A stretch of DNA of 64,000 nt. Origin: Branchiostoma floridae. Its lineage: Eukaryota; Chordata; Leptocardii; Amphioxiformes; Branchiostomatidae. A program made the translations under genes and the position numbers. The stretch covers positions 26,677,248 to 26,741,247 of the forward strand of contig NC_049979.1 in the NCBI RefSeq assembly GCF_000003815.2, given 5' to 3'. The notes beneath the pieces were generated by a model, which worked only from the letters and a program-made list of their open reading frames with translations, had not been told where the DNA came from and did not search any database. Shown in pieces: positions 13,363-59,700 of the stretch (its first letter is position 1; the number at the start of each line of letters is the position of its first letter).

Positions 13363-13460
13363 AATTAAAACATTAAATCGATCGACGATCCTCAGTCATA
13401 CAGAGTCAAAACCTAAAGTTTCCCCACAAAAGTTACGTCCTCGGTACTAAGAAATCAGAC

Positions 13461-29770: not shown

Positions 29771-29821
<51 letters not shown>

Positions 29822-33137: not shown

Positions 33138-36100
33138 TTATGTAACACTACAGTGCTTGTGTTCATCCACTTCTTCATCAGTTATCTCTTCAGAATCATT
33201 GCTCTCTGTTTCCCAGTCAGACTCAGTACCACATTCTTCATCTTGTTCATCCTCCTTTTCGTCTGTAAAGAGTGCATCCTCCACTTCTTTATGTTCTTCA
33301 CCTTGGTTCACTATGACATGTACCTCTATTGGGGACTCTACAATGGTCACTTTCTTTGGTTTTACAGGCATTTGTGGGGGCTGGTCTTCCGCTGTTTTGC
33401 TTTTTTCCTCTGTTTCTTCTGTAGTTGTCTGAGGCATTGCTTCCTCTTTCAGGTCTTTGTCCTCTTCAACATCTCTTTCAAGTGTAACAGTCTCTTTGTT
33501 ACTTTCTTCATCAGTCTCTTCCTCCTTTTCCTTGTCAATGTCATCATCCGATTCCTCCTGGCCTCCCTTGTCTTTGTCTTCTTCCAGGTTTCTGTCTTCA
33601 CCCTTAGTAACTTCTTCCACTTCTTTCTCAAGTGCCTTTGCAATCATCTCATCTAAAATACAATTTGCTACGGTCTCTGTCTCATTGTCCCTGTCATCAT
33701 CATCGAATTCTTCTTGGCCTCTCTCCTCTTTTTCATCTTCTTCCCTTTCTTTGACATACGTAGCTTCATCTGCATATTGCAATAGGGTACTCATAGAAAG
33801 ACATGCGGGCGCACTGTTAATGCGTGACGGCATCTCTTCTGTAGAAGTGACCTCCGACCTTTCTGTATCCACCTCCCTGTCGTCTTCGAGGCTTTGTCCG
33901 CTGTCGTCTTCTTCCCGCTCTTCTACCTCTTCCACGCTTGGTAGAGACATCTCGAGCGAGAGGCCACGGTTTTCCAGCATCCACGCGGCAACTTTTAGCG
34001 CAGGGGGACCCCTCCTAATGAGGTCCTCATGAAAACTCTACAGGAAAAATCACATCATTGCTCACAGAGGTACTTAGCCTACCATCTGTAAAGAATTGTT
34101 TTACAAATCAAAATTATATACAAAAAATGATATACAGAAGTTTCAGCATAAAAGCCTAAACTACTTTTACTGCAAATGTGCTTGAGTTGTTGTTTACAAA
34201 TAATAGATATTGTGAAAGGGTGTCTTATTCAATGTGCACCATTTTCCCCTCCCTTTCCCTTGGTGATATCCGTTATACACATTATGATAAAACATTAAAA
34301 CAATAACACAAGACAGTGTTTTAAAATTTCAAAGCTTTAACTCTTTAGCATTGCGTTAAATGTAACATGCATGACTGTGTGCTTTATACAAAGGAGATTG
34401 TTCTAGTTTTGACAGTGCATATCCTGCATGATTGAAGTAGAAAATTTATCATTTGAGTAAGTACCTCCTCCAGATAGAAACCGGATTCATCCTTGCAGCA
34501 AGTGAGGAAATAAAAGTACAACAGGTATTTGCAATGAAGAAAACAGTAAATGTCATGATACCATTATGTGTGTAATATAACATATAATGAAAATGTTAAC
34601 AGGCACACTTTATTCAATCATGCCTGTCACAGTCATTAGTTAAACTACATGAATAATAATTATTGTATTATTCTTAATCATCTGTAGCCAAACACAGACA
34701 CGACACAATAAAGAAAGTGTAAATCTTAGAGTCACTTATTTAATAACACTTTGTCAAAGAGATAAAACACAGGAACAGTGGCAGTTGATCATGTACTTGC
34801 ACACTTTTGTCACAATGTTTCAATCACACCAGTACCTGTCACAGACGGGTAAATATTATGATAATCTTAATCATCTGTAGCCAAGCAAAGGCATGACACT
34901 ATTAAGAAATATTGAGTCATTTATTTCATAAGTCAAAGAGATAAAACACAGTTGCAACAGATAACACTAGTTGACCTTTATCCGCAGGGCAACATAAATT
35001 CGTTGTGGTTACCAACACGGTATTAAGAGATGTCAACTGGACGGACGATGGTTTCAAGTTGTAATATGTTCAAAATATCGTAGTTTGACACTCTCGTCTG
35101 TCGACCAAATACCCATCTCTGACAGCAACAGATATAGGTTACCCCGCGGATGAAGGCGAACTAGCATTACATGTATAATTATGTACTTGCCCAAATCAAA
35201 AAACAATAAAGGTCAAATCCACTATGTTAAATCCACTATCTTCACAAAGATGACTGAGACTTACAAAACTAGTGCACTGACAGGTAACTATAGGCTTTGG
35301 GTCTTAACTTTTCATTAACAAAGTATAAAATACTAGCACAACTCATATGACAAAATGTTAAACTTACCTGTGCTTTTCCTTTCCCTCTATCCCTGTTCTC
35401 CTTGTCACTGCCATTCCTCCCTCCTTCAAGTCTTTCATTCGTCTTCTCGAACGACTTCTCCCTCTGTGCAGCAGCCAATGGCCTCTGGGAGGGTTGTGCC
35501 AGGGGGTTGTTCCTGACGTCCACGGGTTTGGGAGGGGGGATGGGCTGATGGCGCAGTGGTCTGAGCTGCGGAGGGGCGCGGTGGATCACCATGCCGTTGA
35601 TTCTCTTCTGTGACTGGACAACGACGACAAAGATCCATCAACACAATGTCATTCATTTTCATTAACAGTTTGTAAATATAACGCTAGTTCATCTTTATTT
35701 GCAGGGAAACCTTTATCCGTTGTATACAATACCAGGGTATTTTGGCATATCAAGTCGACTGACGGTGGTCTCAAACTACAATATGTTGAACAAAAAAGCA
35801 ATTTGAAACCACCGTCCATCTACGTGATACCCCTAAATATCCTGCTTTTTAGGTACAACGGAATTAGGTTACCCCGCGAATAAAGGTGAGCTGGCGTTAG
35901 AGAGAGAGTCTAAATGAATGGGAAATTTTGTTTTGAAGTAACAGACAAAACAATTTACCTTTTTCTGTCCATCTTGGCCATCAGAACCTACAATGACAAA
36001 AAAAAACTGTCTTGAAGCAAATGCAGTCATGTTGAATGCTACTTAGTATATGCATCAGAGGAAACTTACAAATGTACATCAATTTATTGCATAACATAAC

Positions 36101-39100
36101 TTTTTCATGGATTGAGTATTATGATTTGTACCAATACATCATGTGAACTATGCAAATACATGTAATATGATGTTTGGTCATTGAGTAATGTTGGGGACAA
36201 CATTATCATTAGCTTTTTATATAATACAAATACAAGAAAGCGAGACAATGTACATTCAGTCAATATTAGAATCTTTGGAGAAATGCCTACAATATAAGAC
36301 AAGAAAGAAGAAAAGCAAAATGTTTCCACAACTGACCTCTGACAAGGTCGACCAAGATGGGCTTATATGGTGCACTGACGTAACTCTCAAGGTCATCCAT
36401 GATGGTGGCACCATACGTCTTCTTGTATACCTTCCTGATCAAGGGCATGTCAGCCTAGAAAAACAACAAAATTAATGCAAAGACGAAGAAGGACTTAATG
36501 GTCTATGGATGCCGCTGAAAATGTTGTGTCTCCATAGTTTGGACATTTTTGTATGCAGTAGCATATACAATAAACAAGATGACCTGTTATTTGCAATGAA
36601 CATCTAGACCTATATGACTGTACTTTGTTTGTAAAGCCAATAGTGTGATCATTGATTTTCAGATGATAAACCTTTTAAATTAGTATACAGTACAAGGCTT
36701 GGGTACACTGTGCAAGAATGTTTATACAGTAGGTGCTGATCACATAGGACCATCGCACAATCACAAACTGAGGGCACTGCTTGGACATTGTTGTGTATAT
36801 TTGATTTAAAAAATCCACAAAAAAGGCTGTCTAACACCATAGACCCTTGTCATTGATCGGTTTTGTCACAGCCTTCTTGAAAATTTTGCAACAAAATTGT
36901 ACAAAATGTACATCAGGGACTACCAAGAATGCAACAACGCAGTGATATTGAATGTTAGGGCTTGTGTACCCATTGCAATTCGAAAAAAGTTAAAGTAGGC
37001 TTGTCCTTGGTGCTGAAATGGATGTCTGTACAATATGTGAAGTGTACCATGCATGATAGGCAAATAGTTTGTCCTTCGGCAGGTAAAATATGTAAAAGTG
37101 TGCAGGCTATGTAACATGCAGGATTTACTTAATGTAAAAATCAAGAGGGAATATGGCTCAGAGCATAAATTTTTTCACAAAACAACATCCTGGACTATGT
37201 AGATTTTCCACTGTCAGGGCTCAAAATACTGGGGTTTTGTGCACCCAAAATTGGAGCTGTGCACCCAATTTTTTTCTGTGGGTGCACAGCAGGGTGCACC
37301 CAAATATTTTCATAGGCTTATGTACACGTATGTTAAGATGTCAGTATACTAAGTAAACACTATATTCTTGACATCTATGTGTTAGAAAGATAATAGAATG
37401 ACTGTCATAGTACTTCCGATTTCTGAAGAGCTCTGTTCAAATTACTAATTTAGTAGGTTTGCAATTAAGTTATTCTGATATTCTACTTTATTTTATGTGG
37501 TGCACCCAAAAATATTGTGGTGCACCCAATTTTCTAGACTGGGTGCACCTATTCCCAAAAATAAATTTCGAGCCCTGACTGTAGATTACAAGCACATATC
37601 ACAGGGCTTATCATTGACATGGCTAACGGTGTTTCAAAGGTATTTTTATCTTTTTAAATTAGCAATAGAGAACTCAAGATGACCTAGCCTGGGTACCATC
37701 CGGAAAGCAGTTTGCTCCAGTGTTAATCATACACTAAATACAGTCGCTTTTTGCTCTGATATTTATCATACACTATATATAGTTGCTTCACTGCTGTTCC
37801 GTCTGGGATCCTTGGCCACGTTAACATCTGGAATTGTCCAAATTTTGAGCGAATTAAGGAATGGGTTCAAGCGTTCGTTCGAACAAGCATTCCAACATCC
37901 GAAAGCCCTCCGTCTGCTTGCGGGAGGCCTGATATCATAGAACGAGCTCTCTAGAACCTATTCCTTAATTCGCTTATTAATTGACGTTATCACCAAATGG
38001 TTTGAAAGTGCAGGTCTCCAGACTTAGCAGAAGTGAACATATAATAGGAGCAAACTACTACTCGGATGGTACCCAGGCTAATGATGACCACAATGATACA
38101 ACAGTTACGACATACCTCTGCTCTAGTCATCAAGCACCTGATGAGGGTTGCCGCATCGCCTCGTGGCCGCATGGCGCGGTAGATTCTCTCCGCAAAGAAT
38201 TTGGGGCAGTAGAAAATGACTTTAACTTGAGTAGGGAATACAAAAGAGATCTCATATCAGTATGAAATAAAAAGAATGGTTCACCTTAATTGTGCCATTG
38301 GAGACAAGTTTTCCAAATTAGTAATAAAAAAATAAAGCCAATAATCAACTAATGTGCCTGAAGTGTTGGATAAAAAATACAATAATTACTCACTCAGTAC
38401 AACACATGATAATTGAATGATTTATTATTTCTCACCATAATAATAAGAACATAACTGAGAAATAAGTTTAATTATTTAAAAAAATTGGTTAATAATATGT
38501 ACGTCCTTACCAAGTGCCACCATTGCTACGAAAAACTCCCCCGAAAGCTCGTCTTTTAGGACGTCTAACATGTCAGTCTGTGCCAGCTGTCAATCAAAAC
38601 AAATGCATCACAAATACATCCTTGTACGTTGTAAACAAATTCCATGATTGTAAACACATCAGGGACAGGACAACATTAGGTTGTGTTACTCAATCTCACA
38701 CTGTCAGCTAGGGGCTTATTGTGGAAGGACTGCTGAAGCTTAATTTGGACTAAGGCTAAAGACAACCTACATGTGTATGGCACTTAACCCTATTCAGACT
38801 TGGGGGCGGGGGGGGGTGGGGGGGTTGGGCTAAAAGTGCCCGCGCCAACTTTGACCTCCTATACCTCCTAAACGGCTTGTGCTAGAACAACTAAACTTGG
38901 TGAGTTTTCCTAAAATATTGTTGGCAACAATTTAAAAAAAATTGGGTAAGTTTATGATTTTTCGTGTTGCCATGGCAACGGGTTTCTGAAAGGCAAATTT
39001 TACAAAAATCACTAATTTTGGTTTAAACAATGGGATTTTAAGATTTTCTTGCTAAACTAAACTTCTTTTCATATATCTTTAATATCTAACACATGTTAGT

Positions 39101-42100
39101 TAAATATTTATAATTAAATATTCATAAATTATGCTAATGAGATGACGTAATTGCTCAAAATCCAAGATGGCCGACAATATCATGATTTAAAGTATAACAA
39201 ACTTATTTTCACTCAGATTTCATTACTACGTGGTATTTTTTTACAGAAAACATTCATGTGAACGTTTTTAATCCATTTCCATGGGGTTTTAGCGTTATAT
39301 GTTTCAAAAAATGTATCTTGAAAAATTTAAGGTTCATAATCCAAGATGGCGGATAGCTAAACTACAGATGACGTCATTCTATGACGTCATTTTGACGTCG
39401 TTGCGTTGGCTTTTGACAACAGATGTCTTATAACACTTAAATATCAATGAGAAAACTTTATTGGTAATTTTTTGAATGAGATATTAAAGTATTATGGGAA
39501 TTCCCCGTTTTAGCCAAAAATATCAATTAATGACGTCATAATTACGTCATATTACGGCATAATGATATAAAAATTTCAGGAATTAGAAAACTCGATGAGC
39601 ATAAACCCCCCTGCAAATTTGGTGATCGTACAGTAAGCCGTTTTGAAAATACGAAGGGGGGGTCGAATGAGCCCCCCCCCCAGGCCAGGGAAGGCCCAAA
39701 AAGCCCAGTCTGGATAGGGTTAAATAATTATGTATGGTGGTAGCGAGTAAATATTTTTGGTGACTACATGTAGCTATAAAGTTCATGTAATAGATCTAAA
39801 TATATATACATTTAATTGGGTCGATTGTGAAAGTCATGATTAAGACTTTGAGTTTATGAAAAAATATGATTACAGCAATTGTTTGCCTTAACTTGAACAT
39901 CAATGTATGGCATGCAACTATAATCCTCAACAACTACTTTACATTTGGGACCACATAAACACTGCATTAACTACATATAATCATGAATATCATTCTGTAA
40001 ATATGTTTGGGACCGCATCTGTAAGCAGTGACACCTAGTGCTGCAGTGTTATGTAAACCAGTCAGAACTGCCCTGAGGAAGGTGACAGATGGTCACATAA
40101 ACGTTAACGAATAAAACATTCAGATATTGACAAGGAATTTTGTTAGAATTCTGTAAAATTATTAATGATCAATAATAAATAATTACCTTCTCATACTCTG
40201 TAAACGTAGCCCTGATGTGTGCATAGCTCTTGGTAGTGATGAGAGACATCAGCTTAGAGTCACTGTCTGTACTCCATCTGTCCTTCTCATTCTGGCAATC
40301 AGAAAATAGAAATGAATGAATGAAATAATAAAGGAACGCATGAAAAATTTTATTCTATTTTATGTGCATAGCTCTTTGTAGTGATGAGAGACATCAGTTT
40401 GGAGTCACTGTCTGTACTCCATCTGTCATTCTCATCCTGGTAACCAGAAAATAGGAATGAATGAATGAAATAATGAATGAATGCATAAAAGACATCATTT
40501 ATGTTCTTACAGCTACATGTATGACGTGTTAAGGTGATAATGCTTAAGTACAAACAAAGTGAAACAACAATGTGATATTTTACTAAAATCTATGATGACT
40601 GATGAATACCCTTAGACTAGTATGTATCAACAAGACTTAGTTCAACTTCTTCACATTTCTTGTTGTATCACAGTTTGGGGCAAAGTCTAAAAAATAGAAA
40701 CAAAAAGATAATCCCTACCTACCCACCCTATATTTTGTAAGGATTGAAATAAGAAACGCAACATTTTTTTACTAGGCTTTGCATTATCCGTCATCAGTTT
40801 TTCACTACCTTTATCTTGCACTGTACTTGTTACCTTAAAGTTTATAGTGTAAAAGGTATTATCCATTTTAGCATTGCATACAAGTAATATTTGTCCTGAC
40901 CTCATATAACTCCTGAGCGTCTTGTCTGGCCAGGTCCTCGTCCACCTGGTTACTTTCATCCCTGTCACCTGCCAGCAGCCCCAGCAGCAGGTCCTGCAGC
41001 TGCCCAGCTGTCTCACTACGCACATCGTCTTCCAGGTTATTCAGGTGCTCTGGAGGATACCACCAATGTTAGGGGCAAGGTAAAATAAAATCTATGAAGA
41101 AACATAATACAACTCAACTTTATCAGCTCTTGACATAATACCATTACAATAATTGTACATTGCACTGCACTTCAGCCAATAACAACAATTGCTGCTTTTC
41201 GTTTTTAACATATGTTTAGTTGCTTCATTTGTTTACTAGACTATGTTTGTTTTCATTTGTTTGTTCATTCATTCATTCATTCAGAACATTCAAACACCAG
41301 TCTGCTATAATGATTTTTGGAGATTTTAAAACTTCAAAGCAATTTCTAAAATCCTAGAAGACCAACACAGGAGAGAAAATTTTGAGTACAAGGTTATTTA
41401 AAGAGATGTAACCCCCCCTCCCCCGCCAAAAAATGAACGTAGCATCAGTAATCCTGAGTTATACACACTTCAGATGTTTAGTACTGGTGTTCAAGACAAT
41501 CTTGAGAAGGCCTCTATAACAACTTTCTTATATGGTGGTATTATGAGAGTTGATATTATTACATAACAGTCCAAGGGAAGAATTTCAGTATAAAAAACAA
41601 CATTTTACACAGTAGCAAACATTAAGAACAGCAGCTATTTTCCATTTTGTACTCTTTCTTTTACTGATCAGATATCATTGCATTTCTATTTGTTGACAAC
41701 AAAATAGAATAACTTACCGTCTCTGTAAGCCTTCTTAATCTGCTCCAAAGCCTATGTATGACATAAAAAAATCAGTCTTAATATATTATACACAATCCTT
41801 CAATAATCTAAAGCAAATCAATTTACAAACGTCTGTATTGTCTAAAACAAAACTGTACAACAGCAACGTTATATGAAAAAAAGATTAATAAAATATCTCA
41901 ATGCAGCTCTATAGTGCAAAATTAAAAGATTCTAATCTGTCAAATCTCCAAACATACCCTATTGTTCCTTGTGCACAAAATTTCAATCAGGGTGGCCTCT
42001 GCTGAGGGTGATCCCTGCAGAAAAATTGAAAAAAAATCATTTGTAATATTAGACCAATGAAAACTTATAGAAAAGAAACAGTAAGAATAATTTGAATACA

Positions 42101-44180
42101 TACTTAGGCCATGTTGATTCGATCATAAGGATGACATCCTCTGGGAACCCACAACTAATCCAAATGAGCATTTGCCTTCTTTATGCAATGCAAATAGCCA
42201 GGGAGTATGACTGAGCATGGTATACTGAACAATAGACTCATTAATTTGTTTTTTTTTTACATCTTCTTTGACCGCAAAATTGATTGCAGCATTCTACGAC
42301 ATCAGCATCTATTCCCAATGTTTTTTGCAATTTACCGCATATACAAATGTACATGTAGCTGCTCATTCTAGTTTAAATTACTTTTGACACACTCATTACT
42401 TTGTTCAAAGGCAGGAACAGAAAAAAGATAGCAGGAGAGTACACAATGTGGACATCTTTAGAATAACTCTGGATAAAGGTAGAAAGCTATTCATGTATGT
42501 ACCTTCAGCGCATCGTGTACTGTCATGGCATCAAACTTCTCTCTTTCCACCAGGAGAGCATCGATCACCGGAGCGAAGTCATCACTCAGCTGGGACTTCA
42601 AGTCCTCAGACAACTCCTGCAATGCCATTGTTATTGCAAGTTATTGTTACTGCCGAAAACTCTCCCTTTGCAGCCAAAATACAGATAAAGGCATTTGTAA
42701 TGTCTTTGTCACTGTCCTTGGTGCTGAATCAAAGACAGAACTACATTGGGAAGAAGTTACTACTGCATCCACAGCTAGATTATCTCCAATTCTAGTTGTC
42801 ATAAGTGTGGTTCAACCAACAATCACATCAGTACATGGGCATGTTGTTGTTATCGTTATTGGTTATTGGGAGGGCCGACTACTCTCTCTTCACAGCTAGG
42901 GGCCGAATAGTGAGAAGCTTACGATAGGCAGGGCTAAATCACATGGGCATGGAGCGGCTGCCATTCGGCGCTAACTTGATCAGGTGACCTCGATATGACA
43001 ATAATTACTCAAAGTCGCATAGGACTGCAGGTTTTGAACCGCTCACACTGGGAAGGACCCTTTTAATCTTTTTGATAAGTGTGGTGGGTTCTTTTATGTG
43101 CTCAATGTATGGCTCCCCTCAAACAAGGGACCTCCATTTAATGTGCTACAGTTATTTGAATGACAGCCTTGACCAAGGCTAGGTGCTCATTTAAACCTGA
43201 GTGAATTATGAAAAGTCATGCAAAGTGCCTTCCCAATGGCCCAAGATTGGTTGCATCAATGGCTTGTATTTGGCTCATAATCATAATCATAATTTGGCTC
43301 ATAGGTCTTGGGGACCTCTGGATTATGAGCCAAATATCCTGCCATTATGAAGCCATTTGATTTCAATAATCAACATGTTTTCAAACAACTGAAAAGATAC
43401 ATAATTATATGAAAACAGTTTTGAATGTCTAATCCTTGTCACTGTCCTTGGTGCTGAAATACAGACATTCATCAGGGTGTATATTTTATACAAAGGTTCA
43501 TCGAATGATACCATTATGGCTGAAAGGGATACTTTTTGTCACATAAGCACTTTAACAGATGACAACCGACCTTGTCATAAAGCTCCCAGAACTTGGCCTT
43601 GGTCTCCTGACGTTGTCTGTAGGTACGCCGCACCAGTGTCTTGATGACTATGGATACTTCGTTTTGGCCTGATAGAACATAGGTCAAGAGTTCAATGTCA
43701 AGTGCAAGGCACATTTTAATGAAACAGTGTTAAGAAATTGCATGTATTGGTAAACCAAACAAAAAAAGCCTAACTTGCATTTCATTGTGTACATCTCTGT
43801 CTAGGCCATTAGCATACTGAATATAATGGACATTCATCATTCCTTTGTACAGTAACTGTTGATGGTCCTTGAAATATTTTCACAAAAATGCCCCTGAAGT
43901 TCCAGAGCAAGCTGCTATCTGCTATGAAGCCCAAACCTTTATGAAAAGCTGTCTACCACCAAAAAAAATCAAGACCATAGCATAGCCCGGACAAAAGACA
44001 CAAAACCAGGGGCACAGACACAATAAAACTAATAACCTCAATTTTTCATAGAGGTAACAAACACCAAATTTTGTTTGAAGATATTTGTACATGTATGTAG
44101 ATAATCAACTCACTCAAGCCCTTTGTGGCTTTGAATAGCATCCTGGAGTCTCTGTCAACATCATGTTGAGACAAATCAAC
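33138..44180 (-). CDS. Annexin with long acidic C-terminal tail
   Basis: Fourteen exons keep phase and encode at least 707 residues: 44180-44114, 43668-43571, 42616-42503, 42014-41958, 41751-41718, 41049-40901, 40291-40187, 38586-38511, 38219-38116, 36454-36337, 35987-35959, 35613-35368, 34491-34465 and 34037-33138. The first ATG exon is not identified, so the N-terminus is incomplete. Residues ~1-310 form four annexin repeats (SRMLFKATKGL, ATLIEILCTRNN, DSKLMSLITTKS, AATLIRCLMTRAE). The usual KGxGTDE loops read KGLSQNE, KGSPSAE, DRWSTDS and RPRGDAA, so calcium binding is probably weak or absent. Residues ~318-399 are Pro/Lys/Arg-rich, and ~430-707 are an extreme Glu/Asp-rich, likely disordered tail. 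Annexins normally end after repeat 4, so this extension is unusual. The gene lies head to tail with a second annexin and downstream of a CFAP97-like gene on the same strand. Confidence 0.87.
34610..34985. repeat. Diverged tandem duplication in an annexin intron
   Basis: Two ~190-bp copies share CTTAATCATCTGTAGCCAA, then GACAC, GAGTCA, TTATTT and GTCAAAGAGATAAAACACAG in the same order. Confidence 0.65.
34962..35168. mobile_element. MITE family B copy
   Basis: Terminal AACACTAGTTGACCTTTATC is opposed by GATGAAGGCGAACTAGCAT; the inner arms TTGACACTCTCGTCTGTCGA oppose the left half. Moderately diverged. Confidence 0.75.
35680..35899. mobile_element. MITE family B copy
   Basis: ACGCTAGTTCATCTTTATTT and AATAAAGGTGAGCTGGCGTT form the outer arms, with ATCAAGTCGACTGACGGTGG and CCACCGTCCATCTACGTGAT inside. 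Confidence 0.8.
37215..37577. mobile_element. hAT-like non-autonomous element with iterated GTGCACCCA
   Basis: The ends are CAGGGCTCAAAATA and its inverse (TTTCGAGCCCTG), the hAT-type CAGGG terminus. ACTGT is repeated directly on both sides. GTGCACCCA or its complement occurs about seven times near the two ends. Non-coding. Confidence 0.65.
37685..38080. mobile_element. MITE family F, host of a nested element
   Basis: TAGCCTGGGTACCATCCG at the left is inverted at the right as CGGATGGTACCCAGGCTA, 18 bp perfect. Its middle contains a second TIR element (37849-37973). Confidence 0.75.
37849..37973. mobile_element. MITE family E nested in family F
   Basis: GCGAATTAAGGAATGGGTTC at the left opposes GAACCTATTCCTTAATTCGC at the right (one mismatch). 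~125 bp, non-coding. Confidence 0.75.
38784..39723. mobile_element. piggyBac-like non-autonomous element
   Basis: A TTAA duplication flanks a 932-bp body beginning CCCTATTCAGACTTGGG and ending CCCAGTCTGGATAGGG. TTAA targets plus a CCCT terminus are the piggyBac signature. No transposase frame remains. ATGACGTCAT-type words recur inside at 39369-39545. Confidence 0.7.
40060..40115. repeat. GAAGGTGACAGATGGTCAC stem-loop module
   Basis: CCTGAGGAAGGTGACAGATG, then GTCACATAAACGTT: a GTGAC/GTCAC hairpin shared almost exactly with 53516-53540. Confidence 0.55.
40361..40487 (-). pseudogene. Duplicated copy of an annexin repeat-3 exon
   Basis: This segment duplicates 40213-40345 at high identity, covering an intact acceptor (TTACCAG at 40437) and the first ~24 codons of the exon at 40291-40187 (DRWSTDSDSKLMSLITTKSY). 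Homology stops before the donor, and the frame reads into AHKIE and a TAA. If spliced in, it would truncate the protein in repeat 3. It is a recent partial exon duplication and most likely a silent pseudoexon. Confidence 0.8.
42113..42390. mobile_element. MITE family A, right end missing
   Basis: TTAGGCCATGTTGATTCGAT and AGGATGACATCCTCTGGGAA match the left terminus. The interior GCATTCTACGACATCAGCAT matches other copies. No right terminus found. Confidence 0.65.
42925..43260. repeat. Dispersed repeat with GTGTGGTGGGTTCTTTTATG
   Basis: AAGTGTGGTGGGTTCTT is shared with 19195-19212, and an inverted, diverged relative lies at about 61860-62015 (GAAAGAACCCACCACATG). The boundaries are unclear. 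Confidence 0.45.
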
Positions 44181-44438
44181 CTGAAACAGGAAGACATGTT
44201 TGTACGTCAGAAACAGAAAATACTGAGTTGTGCATTGTTAAATTGAAGACTCTAAAGCATTGAGATATCAGCGCAAAATAAAACTAAAAAGTAAGTCAGA
44301 GCAACAATGTTTCCTAAGAAGCTAAAATAACAAACTGGACTACATTAAGTTAAAAGCTGGTTACAGGCTGAAGGAAAGAGAGTTCTTGCCTGTATTGGCT
44401 TGAATGTCTGTTAAGTGTTTGTCCACAGTTCTTTTATA

Positions 44439-44770: not shown

Positions 44771-47700
44771 TTAAGACCCTGGACGGACTGAAGTTCTATT
44801 TCTTGTTGACGCAGTCATATATGGTCCAGCCATCTTTCTCAATGCTTTATCCTTCTTGCTCTTTTTACTGTTTGCCTTACTCTTTTTCTCCCGATTTGCT
44901 TTTTCTTTCAAAACCTCTGACCTTTTTTGGCGTAGAATTCTAGATTTTGACTTCTCAGGCAACAAATCGGGGAGGGCAGCTTTGGTTATTTGAACACTTT
45001 TGACTGCCGTTTGTAGACCATCTTCTTCCCATTCCTTTAAGTAGTCTTCCTCCATTCTCCTCAGTTCCTTCTGACTTTCTGTCTCAGAGGACGACCTTGC
45101 TTCTCTTTCAAGGTCAACCGATGTTTCTTCGTCAATGATAGGCAGGAATGCAGGGGGCCGACGTTGCGCGTATTCCTCTTGCTCGGACTTCGATTTCTTC
45201 TTCTTTTTCTTAGACCTGCCCTTTTTCTTCTGGGATGTGCTCTCGTAGCACATAATGATGTCAACATCTCTGTTGTCGTTAGGTGTATCCTTGCTCTTTT
45301 GATAATCAAACACACATCTGTCAGAAAGTCTAAAGAAGTGCAGTCTGTCAAAGTCACTGTCAAGTCCAGAAGATTACACATTGAAAGGAAGCTTTTTTTT
45401 ACAACTAAAATACCTGGCAATGTGCTCAGCTAACTAAGCTAAGCTAAGAATTTTTCTATATTGCAGTAAAAGATATGCTAACTAAAAAGGCAAAAAAGAG
45501 CAACTCTCTATATGTGACGCTAGTTCACCTTTATCCGTGGAGTAACCTACATCCATTATTTTTCAAAACAGGGTATTCAAAAATACATGTATCAAGTCGA
45601 TGGACGGTGGTTTCAAACTGTGGAATTTTTATGATATTGTGATTAGAAACTACCATCCGTCGACTTGATATCCCTAAATACTATGTGTCTAACAACAATG
45701 GATATGGGTTACTCTGCGGATAAAGGTGAACTAGCGTTACATCTAATTGATTGTTGGACTAGGTCATTAACATAATCACACAAGGTTCCCCAGTAGTATT
45801 CAGTGTGTTTTGAGTAAACGAAAAAATTTAAAAATTAGGTTTTGCTATTTTTCAAACCTGTAATTATTCATATACAGCTAATATGTTTGTTAATGCAGTT
45901 CTACGCTCTGATAGCATTTTTGATGACATTAATGATACACTACATATTAATTACAAATTAAATGACTGCAATAATTTGACCCTGGTAACCCGAAATCCAT
46001 ACCGCCAAATGAGTATTACCCTACTCTCACATCTCCCTGGTACTACATGTAAATACCTTGTTTTTGTCCACCCTGTTGACCTTGGGCAGCTTGGTATGGA
46101 AGCGTCTGGGAGGCCAGGTTCCACCGCCCTTACTCCGCTCCAGCTTCTGCAGACAGAGAGGCACCATGGCTATTTTCAGCTCATTTTTGCCAAGACAAAT
46201 TCGCATGAAACTCAAGACTTCTACATGAACTTGCAACAAGTAAAGATGTCATACAGCTTTGACTGAATTTAAAGCAAAGCTAAACTTGAACTAAACTTGA
46301 AAAGCCTACAGTGGATTATATTGTCAAGTTCTTACTTATTTTACATAACGGGAGGTGCCCCAACACGGTACGCTTTTTCTTGCGCTCAAACTCATGGCGC
46401 TCCATCGCTAGTTGCCTGAGAGTGGTCAAAGTTTGATGACTGAATTTTTTACACATAGATTTGAACAACATACTTGAATAAGAAATGCATTCATGTGGTT
46501 CATGAACCTTTCGCGCTGCGTGTTACAAGCGGCAAACACTGTGAGACAATTTCGTGTATGTAACCTTCCAATTTTGTGCTACGCTGGACAGTGTGCCTAA
46601 CTCGGTACGCTTTTTTACATTTTGCTCTTTTCAGAAGTAAGTGGTAAATTCAAGTACACAGAAAAAATTAATAATATGATATTTTAGATTACTTTTAACA
46701 ATCGTGACTGTATGTACTTTCTGTCTCATATGAGGAAGGCTCTAACTAGAACAATCCAGCTGATGTTTTTACGGGCAATGGGCTGAATGCACTGATTGTG
46801 AATGCCCGACTAAAAAAACCATTACGAAAAAACGACACCGCCAACATCAACAAAACTTTGTGTGATATATGAAAATATCATATACATCTCTCTATCAAGT
46901 CTTATTTTCATAGACAGCACGAATCATTTGTTACAGTCAAATAAATCTTTGGAGCGTTCTCTTGTCTGCCACCTTCACGGCCACACTCCCTTGTGAGTAC
47001 AATGGTGGCAATGTTTTTGTCGCTTCCTTTTGGTTGCTTTTCTACTCAACAAACATTTGAAGACCCATATCCATAGTGTTTTATGGAGCTTTATTTATGT
47101 GTATTATGGCAGTTGTGTGACTGCTTGGACGAGTTCGTATAGTTAGCAACACAAGCCGCCAATACGCAGAGGCCGGTGACCGCAGTGATTCAGCACTGTC
47201 AACATTACTGTTAGAATTCTGTTTTTAAAAAACATGAAGTAAATATGTTAAAGTATACTTGGAATGCAAATTAAAGCTGTGTGCATGGACTTGGTTTATT
47301 TACCTTTGTAATCAGCATAGTCAGTGGCAACAAACACGGTGTACTTATGGATAATAAGATCAGCAAAAAATCCGTACCGTCTTAGGACGGGAACCGTCTT
47401 AGGGCGGCCCCCGTTAAAGGCTCTCCCACAGTTTGAAATTTTTGCTACCGGACAGACAATATAATTGAGTTCTGTAATGTCAGGAGATGGTAATGTTCCT
47501 ATCACTGAATCGTACATTGTGTATGACAAACTTGCGACAAACAATAAGAACTTGACTTTATGAGTTTACTCTGACTTTGACTTTAACGTTAGATCATGAT
47601 CATGATCATCATCGGTCGACGTGATCACACATGTTCGCACATGTTTACACACGACTGGGTTATACCGCCCCTTACGGGGTAACATACCCTTTCGCTGGCT

Positions 47701-50700
47701 AATTACAAGACGGGGATGCGCCAGGTCTCCCGTCCAGGTGAACGATGTAATTCATCATGATAGTGGTATATCTAGTACATGTAACGCTAGTTCACCTTTA
47801 TTCGTTTGGTAACCTATATCCGTTGTTTTTAAAACACGGTATTTAGGGAGCGACCGACGGTGGTTCTAAACTGCAATATTTTGAAAATACATGCATTGCA
47901 ATTTAGAACCACAGTCCGTCAACTTATTATACTGTCTTTTTAAACAACGGATATAGGTTACCCCACAGACAAAGGTGAACTAGCATTATATCAAGGCTTT
48001 TCAATCTTAAGGTTAGCTCTTCTTTAAATACAATGACATTGTGATTGATTTATGCTATTAACTGGAGATATTAGACTCACAATTTTGGGCAATTTTGTTG
48101 TCTCGACTTCACCATCTGTAGTGCTGGCAGCCTCTGTGGACCGATCAGTCTAAAAATAATAACATCACAAACTTTTAAAATGTGCTCAACAAAAAAACTG
48201 TTACTGAACAATAACCTGAGACAAATTTATCCCCATTAGAATTCTTTGTAATTTCATAAATCTTATAGCTGTATGCAGCCCATTATGTTTCACTGTTATT
48301 TTCTTTTAAAACATAAAAGAAGAACATACTAAAATGGTCTAATCAAAGAAAATACAAAATTTAAAGATGACTTGGGTACAAGGCTGATACAGAATATAAA
48401 GTATCAAAGGAAGATTTCAGGCCAGGCAAATGAAACAAAGATCGAATTATGAATTTCTTCAAGATCATTTATGATTCTATAATTTGAGCCTAAGGGCTGC
48501 ACATGCTTCTAAGCATCCAAATGGCATGTATCATTATAACATCAAAATACATTAAATTAAATGCATGATCTGCCAACTTTGCTTGCAATATGATTTCACC
48601 ATGGGTGAGCACAATACATCTCGTAGCAGCAAGAAATGCAGAGGGTCTGCTTTTACATCAGTCTACACTCAAATTTTTTTGCTTCTGAGTAGAAGGATCT
48701 ATTATAATTGTTGGTTTTAATTGGCATGCCAGCTAAGAAATTGGACATAATTTGACCCGGCGATGTTGATTTCATTGTATGGAACTTTTTTTGCTCAAAC
48801 TGTTTTTAAATTTGACCACTCGCATCAGTTTTGGGGTTCCTGGAGAACATAATCCATACAACCAAATCAACATGGCCTGATCTAGAGAAAAAAGTTTTCA
48901 TGTCTAATCATCGGTCCTCTGTTATTCCCCTTCAAAAGAAAAATTCATACGAAGAATTTCAAGTAAAGCACATGCAGTCATGCGGTTATGGTTTGAATTT
49001 GGGAGCCATTTTGTTAGTTCAGTAAGAGGCATTGATAGTGACGCATTCACTTTGATCCCATCACCAAGCTTTATAACATGCCTCGGAAAAACCAACCTTC
49101 GGACCAGACCACACGTTCGCATGTTCGGCCCAGTTTTTGAGAATACTCGTTCTCTTCTTTAAGGGCTTGGTCTGCATTATGATGTCTACATAGAAGTCTC
49201 TTGGCTCTTCCGTGTTGTCCACAAGGTAATAGTCATGGGTCAAGACTGGAACCATTCCGTCTTCCGCATCCGAAACGGGAGGGCACTCTAGCACTTCTGT
49301 TTCTACTGACCTTGTCTTTACAACAAGAATGACCTTGACTTTACTACGAGAACGTTGGGGTTTTGATGGACTTTGTACCAAAAGAATTTAGATTTGTTCC
49401 TTAATTCCTCTTGCACCCATATTCAATTTGATGCAAACTAAAGACCTAACGCTGATTCACCTTTATCCGAGGGTACTATTCGTTGTTTGTAAGAAAAATC
49501 GCATTTAGGAATATGAAGTCGACGGATGGTGGTTTCAAATCAGAACATTTTGAAAATATTACAAATTTGAAACCACTGGCCACAGACTTAATACTCCTAA
49601 ATGTGCTGTTTTTTTAGACAACGGATAAAGGTCACCCAACGGTTAAAGGTGAAATAGCATGAGTACATTTCATACTTGAACTTTTATAATAAAATGTGAT
49701 TATTTGTTAATACTAAGAAAGGGAACTGCAAAATAATATAATATTATACAACATAAATGAATCATCTAAAAAACAAAATAATTCTGTTAGCAGAACTAAC
49801 TTAAAACGAAACAAAATTAAAGAAAACAAACAAAAATGAAAGAAAAGGAACTTCAAGAACTTCCTCACCTCTGTTCCCGCGCTCCTTGGCCGCCTTCTCC
49901 GCGGGGGGTCGCGAGGCGTGGGCTCCAGACTGTCCAGGTCGTAGTCCTTAGTTACAGCCGCCATGTTGGCAAGGTAGTACTCGTGCTTCAGGAAGTCTTC
50001 CTCCTATGTGATAAATGTAAGACTTTCACTTAAAGATGAACACACAAGGCTAATAGAGCCTTCAAACTGAAACCAAATTAGCAGGAATCAAGCCGAATCA
50101 GACGGAATCAAGTACTTGCAAAATTCGTGCCACATTCGGGGCCATTTGAGTGGGAATTCCAAATGGACCTTATATCCCTTTCACACATTCAAGAAGGAAT
50201 GAGCCAAAATGTCATCAGAATGAAAATTCTTTTCTATTCCTGGGAATCCTAGAAATTCTTACTGCATTCCAGATATTCTTTTGGCCACATTCTGGCAGAC
50301 TCGAAGTGGCTTGCCGTTTCGGTTTTCCATCAAATGAGATAAGAATGTTTTCGAATAATGTTGGAACGGCATAGAATGTGGTCATACTGCAGTTAGAATA
50401 CGCTTTGATGCTGTTTGATATTTCTCCACTTCAAATGCACCTCGAAAGTTTTTAGCATTAAAAAAACTTTCGGGCCAGCCAAAAGAAGGCGCACTAATAT
50501 CTAGAATGCAGTGAGAATTCGTAGAATACACTACACGTATGATTAAAGCAAAGTGTATTATACTTGTGACAAATACAGTGCTAATTTTCAATTCTTCTTT
50601 GACATAGTACTAATTTTACCCCCCTCCCCCTGACTTACCCATTTGTTGAGATTATAGCTGGGCTGCACTCCCAGCAAACGACTCTTGATCAGTTCATTGT

Positions 50701-53700
50701 TCGTCGCAATCCTCTCGGCTTCCTTCTCTCGTACGTAGTAGTTTAAACTGAAATTCAGTTAAACAGTAACATTCAGTACAAAATCTTTAAATGGTATGAC
50801 ATTAGTGACACCAAAGTACATAATGTTCAGAATCAGATTAACAATAACATAGTATACATAACGATAACATTTAATTTTGTAATAGGTAATAATAATAATA
50901 ATAAACACTCTTCTGATGTTATTCAACACATAAAATGTCTTGATTATTGCTTATCAATAAATGATGTCATATGAAAGATTGCAACCGATTTGGAGCTTGG
51001 ATCCACCACTTTTGAAAAACATTGTAAATTTGTCTCTATTGTATTTTGAAGACAGGGTATTGAAGGATGTCAAGTTATGACAGACATTAGCTTCAACTAT
51101 AACTATTGCCAGTAACGTTACTGAAAACACCATCCGTTAAACGTCATGATATCCCTAACTACGCTGGTCTTAGATACAACGGATAAAGGTGAACTAGTGG
51201 TAAATCTGGTACCTTAAGTTATCCTTTTTAATTAGCAAGCTAACGCAACAATAATCTTATCAAATACCAAATTATAGTTTGCCTTATTTTAAAGTTAAAA
51301 AAACAAACCCATAACTCATTCCAGTATGACCTCTTTAGTATGCAACAATTGAAAAGTCAATAGTCCATAATAAACTCTGCAACATCTCTGATTGCAGCAA
51401 GATTACGGAATACAAAACCATTTTTCTGTTTCAAGGAGGAATTGATAGGCCAAAAATCCTGGTCCTGTAGTGCTTTTTCAAGCTGAATTGCTCCTTGAGG
51501 GATATAGAGGGAGTCAGAGAGGGACATTTTTTTTTGTGTAAAAGCTTTTGATTTGCAACAGCTGCCTTGACATCCAGGTGGCAATGCTGGACAAGACTGG
51601 TGTCCTACATTTAGAATTGGCAGAGTTTAGGCTTGTTCACCTTTATCTGCAGGGTAACTTAAATATGATTCTTTTGCCTTTAAAAACAGGGGTTTTAGGG
51701 ATATCAAGGAAATGGGATTCTCCTATGCAGAGACATCCAATGGTGCCAGCAAACCACCTCTTGTCTGTACTCTGCTATCTCAACCGTCACCATCAGTTCC
51801 TGTGGGCGTCACCACAAACCAGCTGTCAGCCAATCAGGAAATAGGCCTTTCGGTTTTCAAAAGGGATCTCGCATATATAAGGGTAAGGTCATTCATATTT
51901 ATAAGCAGGGCGGTCAGTTGAGATAAGTAACAGACAAGAGCGGTTTGCTGACGCCGTTAGATTATCTGCGTAGGAGAATAGGCAACGGACAGTGGTTTGA
52001 AATTGCAATATCAATTTAGAAAAATTGTTACAGTTTATAATCTGTTTATTGACTTGATATCCCTACATTGTATTAAAAAAAATAACTCGTCTTTGGGTCA
52101 GGAAGATTGAACAAATGACTAATGAAACAGACTATGGTACACCAAACATTTAGATCTTCATTCTGTTCTTTCATAAATAATTTGTTGGACAAAAAATTAT
52201 GGCCTGCTCGGATGTGATCCATATATTCAAATCATGAGGCCTTACTTCAGTATACAGGCTTTTCATTAAACGTCATATTATCAATAATCATACTTTGAAT
52301 CCCTCAGAGACCATATTGGCAGCTATCGTTAGTTCACCTTTATTCGCGGGGGAACCTATATCCGTTATGTTGCCAAATAGTATATCCAGAGATATCAAGT
52401 CGATGGAAGGTAGTTTCAAAATTGTACATTTTTTAAAAATACAGTTTGAAACCATCATCTGTCGACTTGATTTCCCTAAATACATTGTTCTTCAAAAGAA
52501 CGGATAAAGGCTACCCTACAAGGTGAACTAGCGTTACTCGGTTCAAGCAATATGCAGCATCTTCGTGTGTTTTAGATGTACGCTGTGATCCAACAGAGAT
52601 GACATCAAGCGAAAAGCGTGAGTGTATAGATAAAGAAAAGGTTAATGAAAGTTTGCGGATTTGTTCCAAACCTTCTAGGAGTGTAGTCGTTCCAGTTGTC
52701 CAGGGAACCATGTGTTCTCATGATCTGTGTCATCCTGGCCAGCAGCTTCCTATTGTCATGGTCCACCTGAGCTTGTCTCTCCTCTTCTGCCTAGAGTAGA
52801 AAAAATTATTAAAATAATAATTAAACATATCATAAAGTATATCCTACCCACTGCTGTTTAACCCCACAACCAATACAAATTTGATGACAAAAGGTTAGAT
52901 ACATGTAGGTTAAATAAAAATGAAGGTTAAATACATGTAACGCTAGTTCACCTTTATCCGTTGGGTAACCTATATCCGTGGCATTTAAAAACAGGGTATT
53001 TGGGGATTAATCTCGAACCAGATCCACGGTGCGTTATGTATAGTATCAAACTCCCTCCGGTGCCCGTTTGACTCCCTTAGCCAGCTATAGTCCCTGGCCA
53101 GCTTTGATACTATCTTATGGCACCGTAGGATCTGCTTGGAGATTATTTGGGGATATCATGTCGACGGACGTTGGTTTAAAATTGAAATATTTTCAGTACA
53201 TTGCAGTTTAAAAGTACCACCCGTCGACTTGATGTGCCTAAATACACTGTTTTGCCAAACAACGGATATAGGTTACCCCGCGGATAAAGGTGAACTAGCG
53301 TTATATATAAAAAACATGAACAATAACACAAACCTACCATTTGCAAAATGTTTTAAATTGTTACAACATAACTTTTGTTCTATAGAGAAAAATCATAATC
53401 CTCATAGATCTGTGAATACTTTTATAAGGTTAATACAAACATGTACGTCACTGGAAATTACAGACTCTTTTTACACAACCATTGCTTTATTCTCACCGAT
53501 GTTTCGAATTCTCACTGAAGAAGGTGACAGATGGTCACGGAAACATTGGAGAGAAGAAAGCAATGGTTGTGTAAAAAGAGTCTCTTAATTCAATCCTCAT
53601 TAGATGCTTGAAAATTGTTCTCAAGATATTTGTGCAGCATTTCAAACAAATATTCATTTGATAAGTTCAAACATGTTCGAAGTTCATCTTTAGTTGTCTG

Positions 53701-56700
53701 AACAATTTAATGCTAGTTCACCTTTATCCGTGGGGTGACCTTTATCCATTTTCTTTAAAAACAGCACATTTAGGGGTATTAAATCTGTGGACTGTGGTTT
53801 CAACTTTGCCATATGTTCAAAATGTTCCGATTTGAAACCACCATCTGTTTACTTCATATCCCTAAATACGTTTTTTCTTACAAACAACGAATATAGGTTA
53901 CCCTCGGAAAAAGATGAACCAGCATTAGAAATGTTGAGAATGAAATATCCTTTTTGTGAAATGGTTCCAAGTTATTACAAATATTATCTTAAAACCCTTG
54001 CGGTGACTTTGAATCAACTACTAATTCAAATGGGCCCAATGCCAAACAAAATTGCTACTAGTAGTTAGCAAGAACACACCTGCATAATTAGAGATAGCAG
54101 AATTTAGAATGATGGCCTTTGATGTGAATGATTAATACCTGTGTGAACTGTTCAAAATTAACTTCTCCGCAGATGCCAACTGGGTCTCTACTTATGTCTA
54201 AAGTTGGTTCATTTAAGAGGCAGAAAGTGCTTTCTGTCTGTGTGGCAAAATCAATACAATCTGTCAAGTTGAACCTTCCTAACTTTCCCAGATATCAGGT
54301 ATTTAGTACACTCACGTTGGTCTCTTGTTGTAGTGTTACTTGAATTCTGAATCTCACGGTTTTCTTTCTTATTGTTACAGGGATTAAATGAACTAAAGTT
54401 CCAATCCGACAGATTACTAATAGTGTGATTCGTGATTGTTTGTCTAATGCCTTCTTTTCTTTTTCCACACATCATGAGGAAAAAAAGCTGACTTGTGCAT
54501 ACACTTGTACAGGTATTTTAAGCTTGAACTCTCAGTACAAAGTGTCTTGCATAAAGGATACCTTGTGCCATTCCGATCCATACCTTTGATCGCTGTGTAC
54601 ATTGCCTTTTGTTATCAGAGAGAGGCCGTTTCTCTTGTGTGACAAGCGGAGCAAACACTTGTCGACCACCTTTGGCCAGACTGAGTCACACACAGACTGT
54701 AGATTTTGTTTTTACACACCAAACAAACTCATCTCTTTGGAAACAGCTGCATCTAAACAGTGGTGTCTGGTGCTTAGCTGATGCATTTACTGTTTTACAT
54801 GTTTAAGGCATGTTTTCTCTTCCAATTTTTATTGAATGGCTACAATTCTTAGTTTGAATTAATTTTTTGTTCTTTTGCTACATTACATGTAGGTGCATAA
54901 GGGGAAAATATTTGGCCCATTTAAACTCTTTACGCAACAATTTAAACCCAATTCCAATATTCAAATGCACATATTGCTAAATTGCTAATTGTTAAAACTA
55001 GATATACATGTAACACCATCATAATCCAATAGTGTAAATCATCATTTCAGTAATATCGATACCTAAAGTTAGATAGCTTGGAAAGAGAATTTTGTGTGTC
55101 AATTGATGGTATAATGAAAATCAGTTGCAATGTATAACCTTTATGTTAGATATTAAATTCCCCTCATTTGTTCTCGAGTGTGTGGTGCAATATAAAAATT
55201 GCATTCTATTTTATTGTTTAAAATGGATAAAACTCAAGACTTTTCACTAGTTCACTTTTATCCGCGAGGTAACCTTTATCCATTGTTATATCAAGTGTTT
55301 TTGGGAATCTAATATCGAGTCAAAGGACAGTGGTCTCAAATTACAATATCTTAAAAATATTTTGCATTTCATCTGTTTGAAACCACCATCCTTTAAGTTT
55401 AACTTTACATCCCGAATCATCGCTAAAGTTTAAAAAAACAACGGATATAGGTTAAAGGCAATAGGTTAAATATATTATATATTTAACCTCCTTGATAAAG
55501 GTGAACTACATGTAGCCTTATAGATCTTTAATTTTTCTCATTTATTCTTGTGGTGTGTGGTGTTGTGCAGATTTTTCATCTTACTTTATTGTATATTTTG
55601 TAAATGACAAAAAAGTTCTAAATTTGTGATACACTAGTTGTTTCCTTTGGTATACGTACCAATAGCTTCTTCAGTCGTAAGCGTATGTGTTGGTATGGCT
55701 TGGGGGACTTGTTGTCCAGATCCGCTTTCATAGCTGCCACCTACAGCGGGGTATGAAAACAGAAAAATATTGAGTGCTTTGTCCTGCCTCTTTCACAGAG
55801 AACACCCAACACTGGAGGGGTCCTCCTAGAACAAGTGGGGCAGACGCCACTGAACCGTAATCTGCTCTCGTAGCCCGCTTGGTTTGAATTCCAAGCGGGG
55901 ACGAGTGCACGTGACACGCTCGACTGCCGATTCAATCGCGTAGCCTGTTGATGGTGGGGTATCGGATGGTTACCAGCATAGCACCTATCCGTAAGCGAGA
56001 TGTGGCTTTACGAGTGCCATTGTTCGGAGCCGACTCACACAGTGGTGTCAAAAGTGCAAGGTTACCAGGTCCCCGGGTAACTATTGAAGTCGTCGCAGCC
56101 CGCTGGCGACGAAACCGAATTTGCACGCTGAAAAAATTAGTCCACCTATTATCCGGCTATTGCCACACAATGCAGCGACTCATCTAATATAACAGGTGAT
56201 TGGTTATGTCAATGTATTAAGTGGCAATTTGGAGCCATTTATAGCATGTGTCCTAGAATACTCTGTACCAACAAGTCACCTCTGATGGACGCCATCCCTG
56301 TTTACCGATAACAAAGCATTTGTCACAATATTTTAAACATTAGGAACAAACAAATCCCCCCATTTAAACCATTTGGGTGGCAATTACGTTACTAAATCTG
56401 CAGCTTCCACATAATACTGCTACATTTTTGAGTCCCAAGTCACCAGCTGAGCTGAAGCTTTGATTTTAAACAGAGTATCGATACGATAATGTAAATTACT
56501 TTGGGGTCAAAAGTCGTTCCTAACCCTCCTTCCATTTCACCTACTAACAAAATATTTGTTGACATCTCCTAAATAAACGTCTAAGGCCGATATCCTATGC
56601 AACTAGGAAAGAGGGAAAAACAAAGCTCGTAAACCATACTGTTATTTTAAGGCCCCCGTACTTTTATCACACAAAAGAAGCTTGGAAACTAGAGGATACC

Positions 56701-59700
56701 TTTAAAATGGACCGTTGTTAAGATTGCAAGGCCCCGCTAATAGCATTTGTTTTTCTAATCCGTAACCCTAAACATTTTGGATGCTTTTAGAACACCAAAA
56801 TAGTTACAGTGAGTTGAAAACCTTTCTGGTCAACTCAGTGTGTTGCCATAAACATAAGTTCAAAGTTGATAGAGCTAAAGGCTAAATGTGAACTGCATTT
56901 CGGTACATTTTCATTTGTTCGTCACAGTTTCTCAATGTCATAAAATTACTGATTGTCAATGCCTTCTTTTTCTAAAACTGAGCATTTCTAATTCAAAAGC
57001 ATGTATCACAAAAAGACTGTTTCCGTTTGGAAAAGTTTAAATACAACATTAACCCTGAAACTGTTTTTTAATGTGACCTTTGGTCTTCTTTTGTGGCCTC
57101 GACAGTAAAGCAAGTTGCTATGGAGAGGCTTCGGATAAACAAGAAGGGTGTACGCTCTCGCTCTGCGGACCTGTTATGCCCTTATCACGTTTTATTGTAA
57201 ACGGTCGCTACAGCTCGTTTACACTACCCTCCACAACAGGAAGACAAATTATATGGCCAGCCATTTATAACCCTATCATAAAACCATTTGCTTGATTTGT
57301 ATGACAACATGCAAACAAATTAACCCCATCAAACTCCCATGACTGTTGTCTCAGGAGGTGTTCAAGTGATTGACAGCTCTGTGGGACAAGGTGGATTGCA
57401 CCTGTATCCAGCTGTGACAGTTGACTGAAAAGCTGTTCCCTTGGCAACGTGTCGCCATGGAGATAAAGAAGCCATGTCTTCACAAGCGTCCATCTTGTTT
57501 TTTTGTGTAGACAAGGAGGTGAGCTTATCAATGGAAAGTTACTATCACTACACAAAAGAAGACGATTTTCCTCCATTGAAAAGTCTTTATGTTGCAACTA
57601 TTTCAGATCCATTCAACATTCGTCAAACATGCTATGCAAGGCACATCTTATTTAGTTAAGAAAAATACATTAAAACATTAAACAAACAAAACTACACACT
57701 TCTAGGGAGCGTACGTATTAGAATTTTCATTTGGCAAAACTCATATATTTTCCACAGGATTCTCAGAATAGTTTTGCCACAAATTGACCCTTTTCAAGTA
57801 TGAACCCTATTTTTTTTACGTCACAGGAGTACATTCATCTGGAATGAATGTATTGCGTGAGGCGGCTTTAGCAAGGCAGCTCGGACACCTCAAAAGCCTC
57901 GGACACAAAGCCGAGGAAGAAGTCAATAAAGAAAAGCACTTAGAATCACAAATCATGGGCTTATGGCAGTGCTGGGAGAGGATCAGGTTATGGAGTCACC
58001 CATGAAAACTGCATGAGCTGAGCATACTCCTGTGTTACGAAAGAAAAGAACGTTAGACAATCTGTTTTCTTTGCGATATCTATGGTCTGTTAATTCATTC
58101 AAATTCTTTCCAACATCTCTAAAGAAGATGGGAGGACTAGATAATGCACTGCTTTCCATTTCTTGCATGCCATGGACAATTTTAACAAAGACATCCGAAC
58201 AGAGAAAGCAAAGGAAGAACGTCATTTTTCAAACACTGACGTCTCAGGATACTCAGCTTGTTCTTTGACCAGAACAATTGTTATACATGTGTTTGAAAGT
58301 AGCAGCAAAGAAAGTTAACGTTAACCTTTCCTTTCATTTTCTCTCAGATGAGGCACAAGTGTCAAAGTCATATAACACTGTACTAACATCAAAATGTTCC
58401 AGTGTTGTATTTTGCCAGCCACCGTCGTGTTTTGTAAATAGCGACGGGTCAAACTTCAACGTCGAACCTTCCAAACTTTGTATAGCGGAGTCACGGCTTG
58501 TGGCGGGGCACAAAAAGAAAGCAGCGCGAGGCATGTTTGCGCTCAGAACGCGAATCAAAATGTAAGCAAACACTGTCAAACAACTGCTGCAAGGAAACAT
58601 TCTTACATTGTCTGACGAGAGTGATTTTACACAAATTAAGAAGGCAGCTATTTGGCAGCTATTTGCTTGAAAGTACAACAGAAGTTTGGCTAGCTAGAGC
58701 CCGGGGCCTAGCGGATATGCGAAGAAACCATATATTAAGCGAAGCACAGAGCATATAATATGACATATCTTTGACTTAAGAAAAATTTCAACAATGCCAA
58801 AAATACAGCAGTGTCATAATTCTGTCGGTAAGACTTAATGTACTTTTCTTCAAAGACTAAATCATATTGCAGCAGTTTTTATCAGCTTGCAATATTAGAG
58901 ATCTTTTTCGTGCTATTTACTATAGAAGGACATAAATAAAATCTGACATTGATGAAAAGTTCTATAATGTTATAACCACACCTTTCTTTCTACTTTGCAC
59001 AAATTTCTGGGTGCACCCTTTTATCGCAGATGTTTTGCCGTGGTTCCGTTTCTATTTACCCACAGATTAAGCCCACTTTGGCAGGCGTAGCACCAAGGAC
59101 TACAACACGCCGGGGTTTGACAAGACACACGGGCAAACAATCTCTAAAACGACTGCTATGTACATGCTAACACTAATAAAAACATATCCAAAATGAAAGA
59201 AATGGGGAATAGTAAAAAGAATTGTCAACATTTACAAAGAAAACACTGCTCTTTCTACCTGGTCATGATCAACAGGTGTGTCCAATACAGGTGAGCAAAG
59301 GTGTGCAACACAATAAAAATTGCAGGTGTTAAAATCTAACCACTAAGTTATGTTTGCAAGGGGAAATCTCACCTTCTGTTGGTGTAGCTGGAAAGCTTTG
59401 TCGTTCCATCGTTTCTGCAGAAGTTTGTTACTGACCGGGAAGCCGGACTTGGCTTTTAAGGGTGGCATGGCCGCCATGGGGGGTGGAAAATTCGTGGGTA
59501 CGAAACTACAGGCGACACTGGGTGGTGGTGGTGGGTGGCGAACTCCTTTTCAGTCTTACGTTGTACACGCTAAGTCTCTGTCCTTAGCTCTGTAAGGAAA
59601 TGTTTGAAGACTTGGTGTTACTTATTGCTAGGACGGGGGAACAAGGGAGTCACTAAAACTGTCCCAAACTATGAAGACTAACGTTAGTGGCAGCGAGATA

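Follow-up and report, generated by a model that had tools for sequence, protein, structure and literature searches.

Which gene contains an annexin core that does not end where annexins usually end? This question is raised by a stretch of 64,000 nucleotides of the Branchiostoma floridae genome (C1:26677248-26741247; hereafter the window), and the genome to which it belongs (513 Mb, 431 contigs) was searched for comparison. On the minus strand, a model of 21 exons spanning 59477-33138 was obtained from the genomic sequence, encoding a protein of 945 residues (108.6 kDa). All 20 introns exhibit GT-AG borders and the phase is kept at each of the 20 junctions. The protein starts with a CFAP97D-type head and a basic linker (residues 1-236), followed by an annexin core (237-545), a basic tail (546-646) and finally a very acidic tail (647-945). 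The exons, their phases, the domains, the loss of the calcium loops, the composition of the tail and its occurrence at just one genomic site are direct observations. The simplest model is a single gene that joins CFAP97 head, annexin core and charged tail, and from it we infer joint transcription of the 21 exons. That one gene with all 21 exons codes for a CFAP97D-type head, an annexin core without type II loops and a basic-then-acidic tail is considered moderately probable; its predicted product would probably be one cilium-related protein.

The annexin core is encoded by ten exons, which make up four annexin repeats:

44114..44180, minus strand: exon a1, start of repeat 1; entry phase 0, no in-frame ATG before the acceptor
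43571..43668, minus strand: exon a2, annexin repeat 1
42503..42616, minus strand: exon a3, annexin repeats 1-2
41958..42014, minus strand: exon a4, annexin repeat 2
41718..41751, minus strand: exon a5, annexin repeat 2
40901..41049, minus strand: exon a6, annexin repeats 2-3
40187..40291, minus strand: exon a7, annexin repeat 3
38511..38586, minus strand: exon a8, annexin repeat 3
38116..38225, minus strand: exon a9, annexin repeat 4
36337..36454, minus strand: exon a10, second half of repeat 4; no stop where annexins usually end, donor phase 1

The core matches Pfam PF00191 (Annexin) with 175 bits in four stretches in tandem. Among the annexin sequences of the PDB (best 60 of 77 distinct sequences matching the core), ANXA6 is matched over 303 residues (5-307 of the 310 searched) with an E value of 2.5e-99 summed over both ANXA6 cores and 5e-52 for the better one. 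The four-repeat core is thus shared with vertebrate annexins such as ANXA6, ANXA4, ANXA8 and ANXA3. In contrast to these, the lancelet protein has lost the four type II loops, the model shows the CFAP97 head in place of the short N-terminal tail, and a C-terminal tail of 400 residues is added. Just upstream of a7, a partial copy of this exon was observed (40350-40442, minus strand), which is alike in 24 of 27 residues and runs into a stop.

The type II calcium site of annexins follows the pattern GxGT-(38)-D/E. The AB loops of repeats 1 to 4 read KGLSQNE, KGSPSAE, DRWSTDS and RPRGDAA, and GxGT is therefore found in none of the four. Sibling annexins of the same genome exhibit at least 20 distinct AB loops with GT[DNEC] (24 found, four counted twice), a number that cannot tally lost loops since the script sought only loops that keep the motif. 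At what we take to be the capping-acid position of annexin repeats, placed on the ANXA6 alignment and inspected by eye, the acid is retained in repeat 2 only, as Glu. With the calcium loops and most capping acids gone, a calcium-triggered membrane role appears unlikely for this core. Judged by its sequence, the lancelet protein is an annexin by kind and descent, which does not imply calcium dependence. An annexin without any type II site is already known, since all four seem to be missing from diplomonad annexin 13 (PMC4863580).

Annexins were stated in the preliminary description to end normally just after repeat 4. The sibling genes bear this out: all six of the last exons that were read, one from the window and five from contigs C2 and C3, have their stop 2-7 residues (counted by eye) beyond the LLxL that closes repeat 4, whereas the gene with the tail reads on. 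The last exon of a seventh sibling, near C3:29.15 Mb, was not located by the script. The continuation consists of four exons:

35959..35987, minus strand: exon t1, tail
35368..35613, minus strand: exon t2, 82 codons, basic part of the tail with Pro
34465..34491, minus strand: exon t3, microexon of 27 bases
33138..34037, minus strand: exon t4, acidic tail, 299 codons and stop

From a10 via t1, t2 and t3 to t4, all junctions are GT-AG and in phase, which confirms the proposed in-phase continuation of the core through four further exons into a charged tail of about 390 residues (390 counted from t2, 400 from t1). The last exon, described earlier as extremely acidic over its 299 codons, indeed contains 72 Glu and 34 Asp (35.5%), resulting in a net charge of -73 and a pI of 4.06. 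Exons t1-t3 are basic with a pI of 9.98. Skipping of the t3 microexon would leave the frame intact, so that a cassette exon is possible.

For comparison with chance frames, 200 sequences of 20 kb modelled on the introns of the lancelet gene were simulated. Their longest stop-free frames on both strands reached a median of 128 and a maximum of 207 codons. When the bases of t4 were shuffled 500 times, the median was 109 and the maximum 271 codons. With 299 codons t4 exceeds the longest frame of all 200 simulations, and the tail as a chance frame was rejected. Codon usage is strongly coding for t2, whose score was equalled by 0 of 2000 null draws, and weakly coding for t4, where 2.65% of 2000 null draws were as good and the score is negative. 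The GC content at third positions amounts to 0.41 in t4 compared to 0.63 in head and core. A known domain was rejected for the tail, as matches were absent both in Pfam at E up to 1 (t4 alone, and the whole tail within the full-length protein) and among the solved structures of the PDB at E up to 10. Searched against the whole genome, the tail matched only itself; a spread repeat was dismissed, no second genomic place being found at E up to 1. In a charge-hydropathy plot t1-t3 and t4 fall on the disordered side, a result that is weak proof of disorder on its own since the linker falls there as well, as does the head, if only just. The tail is probably disordered, as far as its composition can tell, and a protein-binding or charge-based role, as suggested earlier, is a fair guess on the same basis. 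In the 2.1 kb past the tail stop (31000-33137, minus strand) neither AATAAA nor ATTAAA was found, only variant hexamers.

The combination of annexin core and long charged tail is supported at the genomic level, and that both belong to one gene is regarded as highly probable. An earlier end of the annexin is conceivable, with read-through into the intron just past repeat 4 and the tail exons assigned to another transcript. The frame would then close after a short read-through of 16 residues (GQLWKHFAFLLSCLIL) followed by a stop, and an AATAAA is present at 36088. Yet the donor of a10 scores 11.1 and is the highest of the 20 donors in the gene, four in-phase splices lead from there to the end of the tail, and a10 contains no stop at the position used by the siblings, so that such an end is very unlikely. 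More improbable still is a pseudogene, in which the absence of calcium loops (0 of 4 kept) and the partial a7 duplicate (40442-40362) running into a stop would be marks of a decaying annexin. Against decay, all 21 exons are open with intact splice sites, and the core still matches one ANXA6 core at E 5e-52.

Upstream of the core, the model with a single gene includes seven further exons on the minus strand (59477-46057) with GT-AG borders and matched phases, which encode a CFAP97/Hemingway domain:

59373..59477, minus strand: exon c1, start codon and head residues 1-35; alignment to sea urchin CFAP97 begins at residue 14
55660..55740, minus strand: exon c2, CFAP97 domain
52672..52790, minus strand: exon c3, CFAP97 domain; border c3/c4 and its phase as in the CFAP97D gene of contig C12
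50639..50747, minus strand: exon c4, CFAP97 domain
49869..50003, minus strand: exon c5, last part of the head, first part of the basic linker
48081..48149, minus strand: exon c6, linker
46057..46146, minus strand: exon c7, linker; exit phase 0

Protein residues 32-126 match positions 1-99 of the 100 in the Pfam profile PF13879 (Hmw_CFAP97) with an E value of 2.4e-20 and 73.6 bits, the cut-off being 25.6. In the PDB, the head matches sea urchin sperm CFAP97 in 8snb (E 4.8e-31, 148 residues) and CFAP97D1 chains such as those of bovine sperm in 8otz (E 9.8e-15). The head thus carries the Pfam domain of the CFAP97D1/Hemingway family, members of which are required for stable axonemal doublets; the two PDB matches are its nearest relatives of solved structure by sequence. 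The five matched PDB sequences differ from the lancelet protein in that with 158-231 residues they are too short to contain a CFAP97 domain and a four-repeat annexin together. Both entries are doublet-microtubule structures, 8SNB of sea urchin and 8OTZ of bovine sperm, and in mouse sperm CFAP97D1 is found together with TSSK6 and EFCAB3 (PMC13066092). A figure legend lists CFAP97D1 among the additional microtubule-associated proteins of sperm (PMC11779644). A doublet is often missing in mouse sperm after loss of CFAP97D1 (PMC7444823), and in fly sensory cilia the loss leaves axonemes broken (PMC10425847). The earlier suggestion of a microtubule-related function for the architecture of core and tail is partly supported, by the CFAP97/Hemingway domain that the upstream exons encode and not by the tail.

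A second CFAP97D gene, which is unfused, is located at 18.16 Mb of contig C12 (loci L009, L011 and L012). The genome therefore contains at least two CFAP97D genes, that of the window and that on C12, a lower bound because the Pfam scan of the genome omitted the CFAP97 exons of the window itself, presumably due to their shortness. At the one border compared, the intron between c3 and c4 (phase 2) is shared by both genes, where it separates the exon containing NDY/NEY from the one containing SLN. Further along, the C12 gene contains a stretch rich in Ser and Arg, and its last exon is K/E-rich and acidic with five Glu at the end; no annexin match was found within the approximately 16 kb scanned after its stop. 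Since the unfused gene as well shows a Ser/Arg-rich stretch before an acidic end, basic-then-acidic tails may recur in this ciliary family, the resemblance being purely compositional.

The joint between c7 and a1 is the weakest of the 21-exon model. The exit phase of c7 and the entry phase of a1 are both 0, a match expected by chance in one of three cases. Splice sites were scored with a matrix trained mostly on the model itself (20 of 28 training donors), and its weakest sites (acceptor 4.8, donor 5.1) served as limits. At this strength, no internal exon with phase-0 exit was found between c7 and a1, and the frame of a1 contains no ATG upstream of its acceptor. First coding exons with phase-0 exit, for which 46050-44190 was scanned, comprise only 2 and 22 codons at the limit strength. 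The donors of four weaker candidates, which comprise 1, 7, 64 and 102 codons, score 3.3-5.0, those of the two longest being barely under the limit of 5.1. The same interval harbors a lysine-rich open frame of 200 codons (45373-44774, minus strand) with a stop (to 44771). Its codon usage was equalled by 0 of 2000 null draws, and by 2 of 2000 without the first 20 codons, at a slightly negative score. As an internal in-frame exon this frame was rejected, since it ends in a stop; moreover, its donors above 3 exit in phase 1 or 2, and a1 needs phase 0. The CpG-ratio profile gave no clear indication of a promoter.

That the CFAP97 head and the annexin core are joined in one gene is nevertheless rather probable in our view, the main competitor being two neighbours on the same strand, a CFAP97D-like gene from 59477 to approximately 44771 and an annexin-with-tail gene with its own start. 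As the codon usage of the lysine-rich frame looks coding, the upstream gene could end there, and this frame could be the last exon of a separate or alternative transcript with CFAP97 only. The C12 gene, itself unfused and ending in a charged K/E-rich exon, would be a precedent, and the frame matches this exon weakly with an E value of 0.002 (compositional, low-complexity filter off). For a start of the annexin gene, a TATA-like hexamer at 44438 and the above first-exon candidates are available, though short or weaker in their donors. However, acceptors of the lysine-rich frame scoring at least 4 need an entry in phase 2, unlike the phase-0 exit of c7, and the only phase-0 acceptor above 2 scores 2.2, under the gene minimum of 4.8. 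Exon c3 does exit in phase 2, yet splicing from there would drop half of the CFAP97 domain. Further, a1 lacks an in-frame start codon upstream, and translation from the Met inside a1 would truncate the first annexin helix. Neither AATAAA nor ATTAAA is found from the stop of the lysine-rich frame to a1, a lack that also applies to the region after the tail. Taken together, two separate genes are rather unlikely, at a probability well above that of the early end.

For the product of the fused gene, a mode of action can be proposed, for which we infer the cellular location and all binding steps. By analogy with its CFAP97 relatives, the head would dock on doublet microtubules, either in cilia or in sperm tails, and the annexin disc would thereby be held on the axoneme. 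There, the disc could provide a calcium-insensitive docking or scaffold surface for protein or the ciliary membrane and would not bind membranes in response to calcium. The charged tail would form a flexible, charge-based arm, the basic part of which could touch acidic tubulin tails; the acidic part could repel tubulin tails, or hold basic partners or calcium. That an annexin is welded here to an axonemal doublet-binding domain, giving a permanently microtubule-tethered and calcium-blind protein with a long charged arm, is put forward tentatively, at somewhat less than an even chance.

Annexins at flagella have been described for diplomonads, including the alpha-giardins. In Spironucleus, annexin 3 labels around the outer doublets and keeps all four calcium loops, and in the pertinent sections of that report no CFAP97 domain is mentioned, the N-termini being mostly short (PMC4863580). 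Diplomonad annexins therefore reach flagella without a CFAP97 fusion, as far as these sections go. According to a survey of 2014, additional domains had not been described for eukaryotic annexins (PMC3894181), although a paper of 2016 mentions a weak DndD-like domain in one annexin of Spironucleus (PMC4863580). In Nematostella, the genes tabulated for the apical organ include an annexin as well as a gene with a KIAA1430 domain, labelled C17orf105, and the same source mentions expression of a sea urchin annexin in the apical organ and ciliary bands (PMC4300403). Among the papers listed by searches of the open-access literature, none deals by its title with an annexin fused to CFAP97 or KIAA1430. 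C17orf105 is presumably CFAP97D1. Each part of the lancelet protein belongs to a family already described, and what appears new to us is the combination of the two, together with the long tail. If the fusion is real, it would hint that in other ciliated animals free annexins and CFAP97D proteins cooperate physically. Annexins would be linked to the doublet microtubule by an axonemal domain, and an annexin role in animal cilia would become directly testable.

The window contains further features. A second, diverged annexin gene lies in tandem on the minus strand (23019-30468), of which nine exons were read and one was not found, a run of N being nearby. GTDE is retained in its first repeat, and the protein ends directly after repeat 4. 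Open frames of up to 442 codons with repeated similar peptides were noticed by eye on both strands at 12040-13368; these are probably a minisatellite and not genes. On the plus strand (17759-18904), a frame of 381 codons resembles a protein kinase by eye and has a hydrophobic C-terminus. Inspection by eye also revealed a recurring intron element, for example near 53300, 45740 and 35160, which begins like 'aacgctagttcacctttatccg', has an inverted end and is probably a short transposable element.
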